Positions 16,072-20,498 of a stretch of 32,500 bases of DNA are shown in pieces. Source of the stretch: an archaeon. GTDB lineage: Archaea; Undinarchaeota; Undinarchaeia; Undinarchaeales; JALTGF01. Location: the NCBI GenBank assembly GCA_027077325.1, contig JALTGF010000068.1, forward strand, positions 1 through 32,500. The letters run 5' to 3'. The notes under the pieces are model-generated. The model was not told the DNA's origin and searched no databases. It saw only the letters and a program-made list of their open reading frames with translations. Made by a program: the position numbers and the translations under genes. The first letter of the stretch is position 1, and every line of letters begins with the position of its first letter.

Positions 16072-17367
16072 ATGGCTAAAGTAAAAAGCAAGGATATCAG
16101 AGAAAGAATAAATGAGTACCTTAAGCAACTTCAATATTTTAAAGAAAAAATCCAAAATGAACAATCAGAGGAATCTGTCAAAGAAGCAATTGATTATATT
16201 CATGATGAAGGGCTTGGAAAACTAATTGAAAACGAGCAAGGTGAAAACCCTGCCTCTGCTTTAAAAAATTTAAGGAAGGATGACCTTGGTTGTGTAAATT
16301 TGGATGCAATTGTTGGGATAATCTCCTTTTTAATAATGCTTTTTACAATGATTAAAAAACAGTTAAAAAAATTGCATTATATTGCTCGTTGGAAGCCTGC
16401 TGAGGAAATACCTGACTATACCTATCACGTTAGTGAAAGTAACAACTTGTATGAAAACTTCGTAGAGTCTCTTAAAAGAACGCACGGCGTGAGGGAGCAG
16501 CCAAAAAAGAAAGGAAAAGTAAAGAAGGAGATTGGGCTTGTGTTTGGGGTTATACAAAGTAATCATGAATTAGTCATCCATGGACTTTTGCCTATTAAAA
16601 ATCTCCTTGCCCCAGCAGTTAGGAGATCCATAAATGATAGTGAATTTATTGAAGCATTAACAGAACTAAACTATGAACTAATCTCAGATAAACTCCGGGA
16701 GGAGCTTGTTATAAATACATTAAGGATAATCCTAGATAAATTTTTCTTTGAATCAAATGATGTTCTCTTTAGAAAAAAAATATTGCAATCTCTGTTTTCC
16801 TACGAGGGCACTGAATCCTACAGCAATCCTTTTAAAGCTTGGCTTTTTAAAAAGGAAAGCTCTCCGGAAAAAAGAAGAAAGTTTTTATACAGAAAATTTT
16901 TGGGGCTATACCTGTTTGAGGAGGGCGTCCTAGACCATGTCATAATCACCAAAGATATACTTAAAAAATTAAGGGAGTTGCACATGCTTCCAAAAATCCC
17001 ACAAAATGTTAGGAACCAGTTTAATATTAAAGATGAGGAGGATTTCCTTAAAATCATTGGACTAAATGAACTCCCCCGATTCCTATTTTTAAACTCCACT
17101 CAATTTAACCAAGTATCAACGCTTTTTGAAAGTTTTGAGCCTGTTTTAGAATCTAGAACTTGGCAGGCCCCACCAATCCTCTTGTGCTTTGATAATAAAG
17201 TTAAACATAATTGTATGTGTATTGGAAAAAATGACTTGTTTGGATTTCAAAGAATACGCCACATAAAGCACAAAAGAAATCCAACCAGACGCCAGCCAAT
17301 TAAAAGAGTATTAAACGCATATCCAGCCCTACTACCGCCAGTGACATATGCTACTCCTTCAAAATAA
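16072..17367 (+). CDS. Hypothetical protein, 431 aa, one predicted TM segment
   Basis: Long coding-like ORF, TM-like AIVGIISFLIMLFTMI; no recognised family. Confidence 0.8.
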   Translation: MAKVKSKDIRERINEYLKQLQYFKEKIQNEQSEESVKEAIDYIHDEGLGKLIENEQGENPASALKNLRKDDLGCVNLDAIVGIISFLIMLFTMIKKQLKKLHYIARWKPAEEIPDYTYHVSESNNLYENFVESLKRTHGVREQPKKKGKVKKEIGLVFGVIQSNHELVIHGLLPIKNLLAPAVRRSINDSEFIEALTELNYELISDKLREELVINTLRIILDKFFFESNDVLFRKKILQSLFSYEGTESYSNPFKAWLFKKESSPEKRRKFLYRKFLGLYLFEEGVLDHVIITKDILKKLRELHMLPKIPQNVRNQFNIKDEEDFLKIIGLNELPRFLFLNSTQFNQVSTLFESFEPVLESRTWQAPPILLCFDNKVKHNCMCIGKNDLFGFQRIRHIKHKRNPTRRQPIKRVLNAYPALLPPVTYATPSK

Positions 17368-18028
17368 ATATCTCCTTAAAAAATTCTTCCTGCTCTATAT
17401 CTATCTTTCCATCATTTGCTAAATGAAGCAAAGGCAGTAATGTGCCAATTACCTCTGATCTTGTTTTCTTACTTAACAAATTTGAAAATGCAATCTTCTT
17501 TAATTTTGATTTTAATATCTTTGCATACAATTCGTCAATTTTTTCACTAATGTCCTCCTCTTCTAGTTTTAGCTCAAATGGTTCTGGCTTGAATTTTATC
17601 GGTTTTTCTTTTTTGACTAGTGCTTTTTGCAAGTTGCTAATTAAATCCTCAAGCGTAACGCGCCTTGCTGGCTTTCTCCTAATCCTCAAATCTAAAATTG
17701 GAAACTCATCTTCTCCTTTTTCAGTATCCTCTTCTGTAAACTCTTCTTCTGAAAATAATTCTTCAAACCTCTCTTCTTCCTCATCGCTCATAATCAGTTG
17801 GTCTGATTGCATCTTAAGCAATATTGCAGCAGCAAGAATAATCCTGGCAGGAATTCTCAGGTCAAGCTCTTTCATCTTTTTAATCTTTTTAGTATATGTC
17901 TCAGTAAGTTTTGTTATGTCTATATCCCACGGGTCTAAGTCCTCTGTTCTGACTATGTCAAGCAAGATGTATTCCCATGCCCGTTCGGACTGCAATATCT
18001 GTTCTATGTTAAGTTCCACCTTCCTCAT
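17351..18028 (-). CDS. scpA: Segregation and condensation protein A
   Basis: ScpA-like acidic kleisin (LLDIVRTEDLDPWDIDITKLTETYTKKI..., RIILAAAILLKMQSDQL..., C-terminal winged helix); overlaps smc 3' end. Confidence 0.88.
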   Translation of the reverse strand: MRKVELNIEQILQSERAWEYILLDIVRTEDLDPWDIDITKLTETYTKKIKKMKELDLRIPARIILAAAILLKMQSDQLIMSDEEEERFEELFSEEEFTEEDTEKGEDEFPILDLRIRRKPARRVTLEDLISNLQKALVKKEKPIKFKPEPFELKLEEEDISEKIDELYAKILKSKLKKIAFSNLLSKKTRSEVIGTLLPLLHLANDGKIDIEQEEFFKEIFILKE

Positions 18029-20498
18029 CTCCCTTGATATGCTTTAGATCTATCCCAACAATCTTTGAAGCTCCGTTTGGACCCATTGAAACTCCAAAAA
18101 TACTGTCTGCTTCTTTAACGGTTGCATTATTGTGGCTAATGACAATAATTTGTGCGTCTTTCAATCGCTCGGCAAGCAATTTAGTGACCCTTACTGAATT
18201 TTTTTGGTCAAGTGCTGCATCTACCTCATCAAGAACATAAAATGGTGCCGGCTTGTACTCTTGAAGCGCAAGCAAAAATGCAAGTGCAGTTAGAGACTTT
18301 TCTCCACCACTCATCGCTTCCAAACTTAACACTTTTTTCCCTCCTGGGTTTGCATTTATGAAAAGACCCCCGCTCAATGGATCCTCTTCGTTTTCAATTT
18401 TAAGCTCGCCCCACCCTCCAGGAGAAAGTTTTGGATAAATGTTTGAAAATGCCTCTGAAACTTTGTTAAATACAGAATAAAATACCTCTTTCTTTTTTGT
18501 TTCAATTTCCTCAATAAACTCTATTACTGAATCCCGCTCTTTCTTTAATTTATTAAACTTTTCTTCAAATTTCTTAAATTCCTCCCATTCTCGAGCATAA
18601 AGTTCAATTGCTTTCATATTAACTGGCTCAAGCGAGGTGATCTGTTTTTCAAGTTCAGATAGCTGGTGTTCTATCTTTTCAATATCAACTTTTTCAAATT
18701 CTCTCCCTTTAAATTTTTCAATATTTATCTTGACATCAACAAGTTTTGCATCAACCCTAGCTTTTTCAATTCTTAGGTCGCTTATGTCTCTCTGTAAGGA
18801 ATTGTACTCAATAAGTGCCTCGTCTCTTTCATGTCTGGCTTTTTCAATTTCTTCTTCCACATTTGTTCTTGTCTCTTCAAGTTTTTTGAAATTAATCCCT
18901 GCCTCTTCTGCACGTGCTTCAGTTTCAGACAGCTTCTTTTTTAGGGACTCAATCTCAAGTTGTGTTTCTTCAATCTCGTCAAGTAACTTGTCTCTATTTT
19001 TGACATATTCTTCTATCTCATTGTTTGGCGCGCTTTCTCTTTTTTTATAACCCCCAGTTATTGCCCCGCTTCTTTCGGCAACGTCCCCATCAAGTGAAAC
19101 CATTCTAAATTTTCCAATAAGGCTCTTCACCTTTTTCAGCTCTTCAACAACATAGGTATTCCCAAATATATATGCAAAAATCCCTCGGAACTTGTCATCA
19201 AATTTTATAAGATTTACTGCAAGTCCTATTATGCCTTTTCCTCTCATCGGCTTAAGTATTGGGCCGTGTATCTTATTTAATGGGAGGAATGTTGCCCTGC
19301 CAATTCTATTCCTTTTTAAGTATTCCACACATTTTAGGGCGGTGTCTTCATTATCTACCACAATGTAACGCTTCCTGGAACCCATGGCAGAGTCAATTGC
19401 AGCTGCGTATTTTGGGTCAACCCTTATTAGTTCTCCAACGGTTCCATAAACACCATCAATCTCTTCCTTTAATGATTCGACTTTTTTTAGTCCGCGATCG
19501 TCAATAAATGACTGGAGCTTGCTTATCATTGAGTCAAGTCTGCTTATCTCTGCTCTTTTTGACTCAATCTTACTCTCATCTATTGATATCCTGCTTTGTA
19601 ATCTTTCAACTTCGTTTTTTATTGAGAGCTGTTCCTGTCCGCCTTCTTTCAAAAGTTTTCTGTCAAGTTCCTTTAGCTCTTTTTCTTTTTGTTCAATTTT
19701 TGACTCAATTTCTTTTAGCTCTTTTTCACTTTCTGATTTTTTACTCTCAGATTCCTCAATTTTCTTATTTAAGATCTCTTCTTGTTCTTCAATCTCTTTT
19801 AACTTAGAAAACGCAAGGTTTGCTTCTAATTTTGAGTATCTCTCCTTAAGTTCCTTGTATTTTTCAGCATCTTCTTTTTCATCTTTAAGGGCCTCTATAT
19901 GTTTCTTCCTTTCGGAAAGTAAAATCACAACTTCCTTAATCTTCTCCTCTACTTTGTCCAAATCTTTTTTAGCAGCGGCCTTCTTTTCATCATACTCTGA
20001 AATCCCGCTGAGATTGTCAATAATCTGTCTCCTCTGAATTGGATCCATCTCAATAAATGAAGTTATCTCTCCTTGTGGCACTATATTGTGCCCCATTGAG
20101 TCAAGTTGTGCACTTAAAAGAAAATCAACAAATCTTGCCCTCGTCACCCGCTCTCCGTTTATCTTATATGTCATTGTCCCATTTCTTGTAAGTCGCCGGG
20201 TAATCACAACTTCATCTGAATCAAAAGGATACTCTCTTTTTGAGTTATCTAGGACAATTGAGACCTCCAGATATTTTGCAGGAGTTGCATTTTCTCCTCC
20301 ATTGTAAATAAGGTGGGTAAGCCTTTCTGCCCTAAGTGTTTTTGCTGTTGGTCTTCCAAGGACAAAAAGAATTGCATCGCATATGTTTGATTTCCCAGAG
20401 CCATTTGGCCCCATGATTGCCGTGAACCCCTTAGAAAATGGAATAGACACTTTCTTACTAAATGACTTAAATCCCTGAAGTTCTAAGCGTTTTATCAA
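18009..20498 (-). CDS. smc: Chromosome segregation SMC ATPase with short arms (829 aa)
   Basis: Walker A GPNGSGKSN, signature LEAMSGGEKSLTALAF, Walker B FYVLDEVDAALD, hinge DGVYGTVGELIRVDPKYAAAIDSAMGSR...AERSGAITGG. Confidence 0.96.
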   Translation of the reverse strand: MIKRLELQGFKSFSKKVSIPFSKGFTAIMGPNGSGKSNICDAILFVLGRPTAKTLRAERLTHLIYNGGENATPAKYLEVSIVLDNSKREYPFDSDEVVITRRLTRNGTMTYKINGERVTRARFVDFLLSAQLDSMGHNIVPQGEITSFIEMDPIQRRQIIDNLSGISEYDEKKAAAKKDLDKVEEKIKEVVILLSERKKHIEALKDEKEDAEKYKELKERYSKLEANLAFSKLKEIEEQEEILNKKIEESESKKSESEKELKEIESKIEQKEKELKELDRKLLKEGGQEQLSIKNEVERLQSRISIDESKIESKRAEISRLDSMISKLQSFIDDRGLKKVESLKEEIDGVYGTVGELIRVDPKYAAAIDSAMGSRKRYIVVDNEDTALKCVEYLKRNRIGRATFLPLNKIHGPILKPMRGKGIIGLAVNLIKFDDKFRGIFAYIFGNTYVVEELKKVKSLIGKFRMVSLDGDVAERSGAITGGYKKRESAPNNEIEEYVKNRDKLLDEIEETQLEIESLKKKLSETEARAEEAGINFKKLEETRTNVEEEIEKARHERDEALIEYNSLQRDISDLRIEKARVDAKLVDVKINIEKFKGREFEKVDIEKIEHQLSELEKQITSLEPVNMKAIELYAREWEEFKKFEEKFNKLKKERDSVIEFIEEIETKKKEVFYSVFNKVSEAFSNIYPKLSPGGWGELKIENEEDPLSGGLFINANPGGKKVLSLEAMSGGEKSLTALAFLLALQEYKPAPFYVLDEVDAALDQKNSVRVTKLLAERLKDAQIIVISHNNATVKEADSIFGVSMGPNGASKIVGIDLKHIKGDEEGGT

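Follow-up and report, generated by a model that had tools for sequence, protein, structure and literature searches.

The window (the whole 32,500-nucleotide stretch of archaeal DNA analysed here) carries on its minus strand an smc gene with half-length arms (18009..20498), an open reading frame of 829 aa that begins with TTG and is free of internal stops. In alignment with its nearest relatives this TTG falls on their ATG, and no ATG is found in the short in-frame stretch upstream of it. The N-terminal ATPase head (residues 1-172; 19983..20498, on the minus strand as are all features of the gene) is delimited by an HMM boundary and consists, in the AlphaFold model, of strands and helices with pLDDT mostly of 80-93. 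It contains a conserved Walker A motif, GPNGSGKS (residues 30-37; 20388..20411), of which G30, G35 and K36 are invariant in alignment A1. HMM boundaries then give an N-terminal coiled-coil arm of 173 aa (residues 173-345; 19464..19982), a hinge dimerization domain of 139 aa (residues 346-484; 19047..19463; PF06470, and 185 bits with our own hinge HMM) and a C-terminal coiled-coil arm of 170 aa (residues 485-654; 18537..19046). The C-terminal arm includes the joint motif PVNMKA (residues 625-630; 18609..18626), which corresponds to the joint seen in 5xei, a head construct of the P. yayanosii protein. The C-terminal ATPase head follows (residues 655-829; 18012..18536; HMM match 655-819), with an invariant ABC signature MSGGEK (residues 729-734; 18297..18314; S730-K734 invariant in A1) and Walker B motif FYVLDE (residues 753-758; 18225..18242; Y754, D757 and E758 invariant in A1).

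The split ATPase has the Walker A, Arg finger, Q-loop, SGGE signature, Walker B and His switch, and across 14 short SMCs the residues K36, R56, Q142, S730-E733, D757/E758 and H789 are invariant. Pfam SMC_N matches residues 2-811 and SMC_hinge (PF06470) residues 348-455 in the middle of the protein with 108 bits, and the curated cut-offs of both prokaryotic SMC models are passed (TIGR02169 SMC_prok_A, 811.9 bits against 729.4; TIGR02168 SMC_prok_B, 619.8 bits against 567.35). These matches and the invariant motifs bear out the preliminary description, made from the letters of the window, in which the heads, signature, Walker B and hinge were held to be intact. Among solved structures its best relatives are archaeal and bacterial SMC, headed by the head constructs 5xei, 5xns and 4i99 from Pyrococcus. 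The protein departs from the usual prokaryotic and archaeal Smc in arm length, having 173 and 170 aa where some 340 aa are expected, and its membership of the family stands because arm length is a known variable within it (PMC5344682). SMCs of the same order are colinear with it and 54-56% identical, and such identity between families of one order, together with almost no indels in the arms, implies purifying selection.

Next to smc, and overlapping its 3' end by 20 bp, lies scpA (17351..18028, minus strand; 225 aa; PF02616, 67.7 bits), so the kleisin gene is indeed next door as first described. The two genes adjoin in each of the six genomes sampled from the window's phylum, and ScpA is the predicted kleisin partner of the protein. 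An scpB gene (PF04079 over cut-off) was found in 18/18 of the short-arm or hingeless genomes tested; it is not linked to smc-scpA in the window's phylum and is linked in the Nanohaloarchaeota. In archaea ScpA frequently fails to bind ScpB (PMC7055376), and so the complex may consist of Smc and ScpA only. Other neighbours in the window are housekeeping genes, among them those for an M50 peptidase, a class II tRNA synthetase and, for archaeal lipids, a geranylgeranyl reductase. Convergent with scpA is a 431-aa ORF (16072-17367, plus strand) with no Pfam match.

Arm length and the place of the missing residues

Arms were measured as the stretches between the N-head, hinge and C-head HMM matches, the domain HMMs having been cut from an alignment of 14 short SMCs and rebuilt on 120 short and long SMCs. 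By the same method the arms of full-length archaeal SMCs are 340.0 ± 8.4 residues (n=42; around 342 for the N-arm and 338 for the C-arm) and their hinges, at about 141 residues, are the same as in the short form. With a mean short arm of 171.5 residues here, the ratio of short to full-length arm is 0.50. N-arm and C-arm lengths follow each other closely (r = 0.99) among the 120 hinge-bearing SMCs, and so the shortening is symmetric. The earlier reading of an 829-aa SMC with both arms about halved, and halved equally, is thus upheld by HMM boundaries, which leave no room for arms of normal length with misjudged domain limits; its figure of 180-190 residues per arm overshot by some 10-20, since it took in some of the head-proximal coil.

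Over 56 SMCs from three archaeal phyla the short arms measure 172.5 ± 3.4 residues, although arms from different phyla are only about 27-35% identical. So narrow a distribution, kept despite divergence to around 30% identity, suggests that arm length (or phase) is under selection and not decaying. Bacillota SMC arms come to 347-348 residues on the present HMM scale against a published 344 for B. subtilis (PMC5344682), which places the arm of the window's protein at about 167 on the published scale. A Woesearchaeota SMC (L063) within a long-armed group has intermediate arms of 217/223 aa, a separate shortening. At the other extreme are SMC-type proteins of about 1490 aa from Lokiarchaeota (L105, L110, L114, L122, L123), with very long arms and no hinge match, which may belong to the natural 515-aa arm mode taken up below.

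The joint, a head-proximal break in the SMC coil (PMC5526789), gives a fixed point from which the loss can be located. The distance from PVNMKA to the C-head is 29 residues in all the short and long archaeal SMCs checked that carry the motif, whereas from hinge to joint there are 142 residues in the window's protein against 305-326 in most long archaeal SMCs (291 in one long micrarchaeote SMC). From the constant joint position and the shorter hinge-joint stretch it follows that about 168 residues per strand are missing between joint and hinge. In a single-gap profile alignment of short with long arms the 110-120 N-arm residues nearest the head are clearly homologous but the break points of the deletion are ambiguous, in the C-arm especially, and for this reason the deletion was placed by the joint motif. 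Loss of two superhelical periods was considered and rejected, since 168 residues are 1.85 times the 91-aa functional period (PMC5344682) and so no exact multiple. The AlphaFold monomer agrees with this: the N-arm is a single continuous helix (167-333), and after the hinge come helices 491-594, 606-623 and 630-691, interrupted at the joint by the breaks 595-605 and 624-629. Mean pLDDT is 79, confidence being low midway along the arms and where they meet the hinge, and a pTM of 0.47 makes the overall geometry of the model unreliable.

During arm measurement a number of SMC-type proteins came to light that have no hinge-HMM match at all. One set, of about 960-1025 aa, has normal SMC heads, full-length arms (around 325 aa) and a Rad50-like CPxC at the middle of the protein, except in a few frames that are lengthened or cut short. 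These occur in 8/8 Pacearchaeota/Nanoarchaeota (L071, L093, L094, L096, L097, L100, L102, L129), in L112 (Diapherotrites) and in 30/30 loci fetched from the phylum of G045 (L201-L230); among the 120 hinge-bearing SMCs the motif was seen in none. The two tested score 538-547 bits as SMC, far above their 113-137 bits as Rad50, and one gives a weak, sub-cut-off match to the Pfam zinc-hook model of Rad50 (E 0.002). From their sequences these proteins are probably natural zinc-hook SMCs in which a Rad50-like motif replaces the hinge, and they look like the natural counterpart of an engineered Smc with a zinc hook (PMC5344682); a literature search found no paper describing natural zinc-hook SMCs. 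A further hingeless form of about 725-780 aa lacks any CxxC and is nearly phylum-wide in the phylum of G018 (L045, from G018 itself, and L181-L200), where one genome, G199, has an 1144-aa form instead; scpA and scpB adjoin smc where checked. The hingeless form occurs also in L046 (G040).

Distribution, alternatives and origin

In the window's phylum, sampled as six genomes of one order and four families, a short colinear SMC is present in 6/6. Essentially all of about 115 sampled genomes of Aenigmatarchaeota (the phylum of G031) have a short SMC and no full-length SMC was seen among them, complete smc genes encoding some 800-860 aa except for frames of about 1330-1390 aa in which the match is divided at the P-loop, as it would be by an intein. 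Every complete smc gene in 28 genomes of Nanohaloarchaeota (the phylum of G043) is likewise short, and short SMCs occur too among named genomes of Aenigmatarchaeota and Nanohaloarchaeota, the complete SG9 genome of the latter included. Five bacterial MAGs labelled Bipolaricaulota, Acetothermia or Atribacteria carry a short-arm smc (L065, L066, L067, L069, L070), followed in L067 and L069 by scpA and scpB downstream. The short-arm trait is therefore shared by no fewer than three phyla of archaea and by a bacterial lineage, and the natural half-length SMC first described is real without being a peculiarity of one genome. Long insertions at the Walker A GK|S, giving smc frames of 1330-1790 aa, were met in G066, G109, G125, G132, G140 and G151, and also in G194, G024/L053, G246 and G264; they are probably P-loop inteins.

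Overall the best explanation is that the window's protein is a bona fide SMC-ScpA(B) condensin belonging to a distinct and stably inherited short-arm class, to which we give a probability of roughly 0.88. That it should instead be an assembly deletion, a frameshift remnant or a decaying pseudogene might be thought from the state of the genome, a fragmented MAG of 769 kb in 186 contigs and 76% complete. However colinear SMCs of equal length in every sampled genome of the phylum and in closed genomes of other phyla, a frame with no internal stop, a full set of catalytic residues and a loss that is equal in both arms leave such an artefact with practically no chance, and the preliminary description was correct in setting aside frameshift and truncation. 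Nor have the relatives proved to be full-length, as a deletion of the assembly would have it. Rad50, RecN, MksB and ASRP/coalescin proteins have shorter coils, and the protein gives weak matches to ASRP/coalescin (NF045487, 126.5 bits, below the cut-off of 300) and to Rad50 (92 bits, below 700), from which it might be taken for another SMC-like ATPase with the true SMC encoded elsewhere. Against this it passes both SMC models (812 and 620 bits), it has an SMC hinge and not the Rad50 zinc-hook CxxC, and scpA adjoins its gene. A second SMC of matching score was found neither in the window's genome, where at 76% completeness its absence rests on the relatives, nor in the closed short-arm genomes: the single-contig G022 and G043 have the short SMC only, plus distant ABC or Rad50-like matches. 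Misassignment to the SMC family is thus very improbable.

A further possibility is that genome reduction alone shortened the arms and that their length carries no functional meaning. Most short-arm genomes are indeed of 0.5-1.3 Mb, but G011 and G033 are equally small (0.8 Mb) and keep SMCs of 1133-1137 aa, as G044 (0.6 Mb) keeps one of 1039 aa and G055 (0.9 Mb) a frame of 1245 aa. Since small genomes with long SMCs exist, reduction alone is not enough as an explanation, and erosion should in addition scatter the lengths and not hold them as tightly as the 56 sequences do. We regard it as unlikely, though less remote than either of the two preceding alternatives, and retain a stably inherited short-arm condensin as the preferred reading.

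How many times the class arose is a separate matter. A head-plus-hinge tree joins the Nanohaloarchaeota and Bipolaricaulota SMCs in one group (support 100/99), sets the Aenigmatarchaeota SMCs in a clade of their own and puts the window's phylum, with weak support, among long-armed SMCs. That the short form arose once and then spread, by descent and by transfer to the Bipolaricaulota, is favoured by the well-supported grouping of the Nanohaloarchaeota and Bipolaricaulota SMCs and agrees with the AU test, by which a single clade of all short SMCs is not rejected (p 0.386; 36 rows). The alternative of repeated convergence on a permitted length draws on the place of the window's phylum in the free tree, on the mild rejection of a clade of that phylum with the Aenigmatarchaeota alone (p 0.033) and on a parsimony count of three changes, and with these set against it we hold the chances of a single origin to be even. 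The grouping of the five bacterial smc genes (L065, L066, L067, L069, L070) with Nanohaloarchaeota possibly reflects a transfer between domains.

Mechanism and relation to known condensins

The protein would serve the cell as its sole chromosomal condensin ATPase and be orthologous to the Smc of Smc-ScpA(B), each of its two antiparallel arms having lost about 168 residues from the stretch that links hinge and head-proximal joint. Taking 0.1485 nm per residue, its arms would be about 25 nm long against about 50 nm in full-length forms. Its cycle is most likely that of a normal SMC: two copies are predicted to dimerize via the hinge, ScpA to bridge the neck of one SMC to the head of the other and ATP to engage the heads, upon which the joint would open the rod and DNA would be captured and then moved between the arms. 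Loop extrusion by the short form is similarly a prediction, and because the ring is about half as long, the DNA segments that it takes in and passes on in each cycle should be shorter.

Models of loop extrusion disagree as to what depends on arm length, be it step size, communication between head and hinge or the opening of the ring, and arm-length tests so far are engineered truncations, mostly failing. Evolution has halved both arms while keeping joint, hinge and kleisin and so offers ready-made short versions of the motor, and step size, ATPase coupling and DNA capture can be compared directly between natural short and long homologues. With an estimated mass of about 95 kDa, going by its 829 residues, the protein also lends itself to solving the structure of an intact arm. 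A literature search, among open-licence papers, found none describing short-arm SMC lineages, and no purified or imaged protein of the class was found.

Tentatively, and with the odds somewhat against it, one may go further and propose that the short class has a condensin geometry of its own. Archaea would have come to arms of about 172 residues on more than one occasion, a bacterial lineage would share them, and selection would keep them at that length. The 25-nm ring would then extrude loops in correspondingly smaller DNA steps, with arms so short that engineered B. subtilis Smc does not work with them.

Burmann 2017 (PMC5344682) gives natural prokaryotic SMC arm modes of 238, 341 and 515 aa, and "possibly" 163 and 423. 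The 163-aa mode, very near to the arm length of the short class, appears there as a "possible minor mode" to which, in the main text at least, no lineage, operon context or conservation is attached. The short class probably accounts for it, judging by length; a natural short class had thus already shown itself in arm-length statistics.

In common with full-length Smc-ScpAB of B. subtilis and Pyrococcus, the short form has the head motifs, hinge, head-proximal joint, adjacent scpA and an scpB in the genome, and it differs in its arms (171.5 residues against about 340-348) and in the span from joint to hinge (142 against about 310). Closer in design is the engineered B. subtilis Mini-Smc (PMC5344682), in which head and hinge are likewise intact and arm has been removed between the head-proximal and hinge-proximal parts. 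Engineered B. subtilis Smc is functional with arms of 253-267, 330-373 and 407-435 aa, no function being reported below 253 aa (PMC5344682), and so a 170-aa arm may work somewhat differently. Functional Mini-Smc versions therefore stop at 253 aa whereas the natural class has about 172 (around 167 on the published scale), and unlike Mini-Smc the natural class is the sole SMC of whole phyla. Smc5/6 and MksB also have arms below the 341-aa class, those of eukaryotic Smc5/6 centring near 272 aa (PMC5344682), but belong to other subfamilies with other partners.
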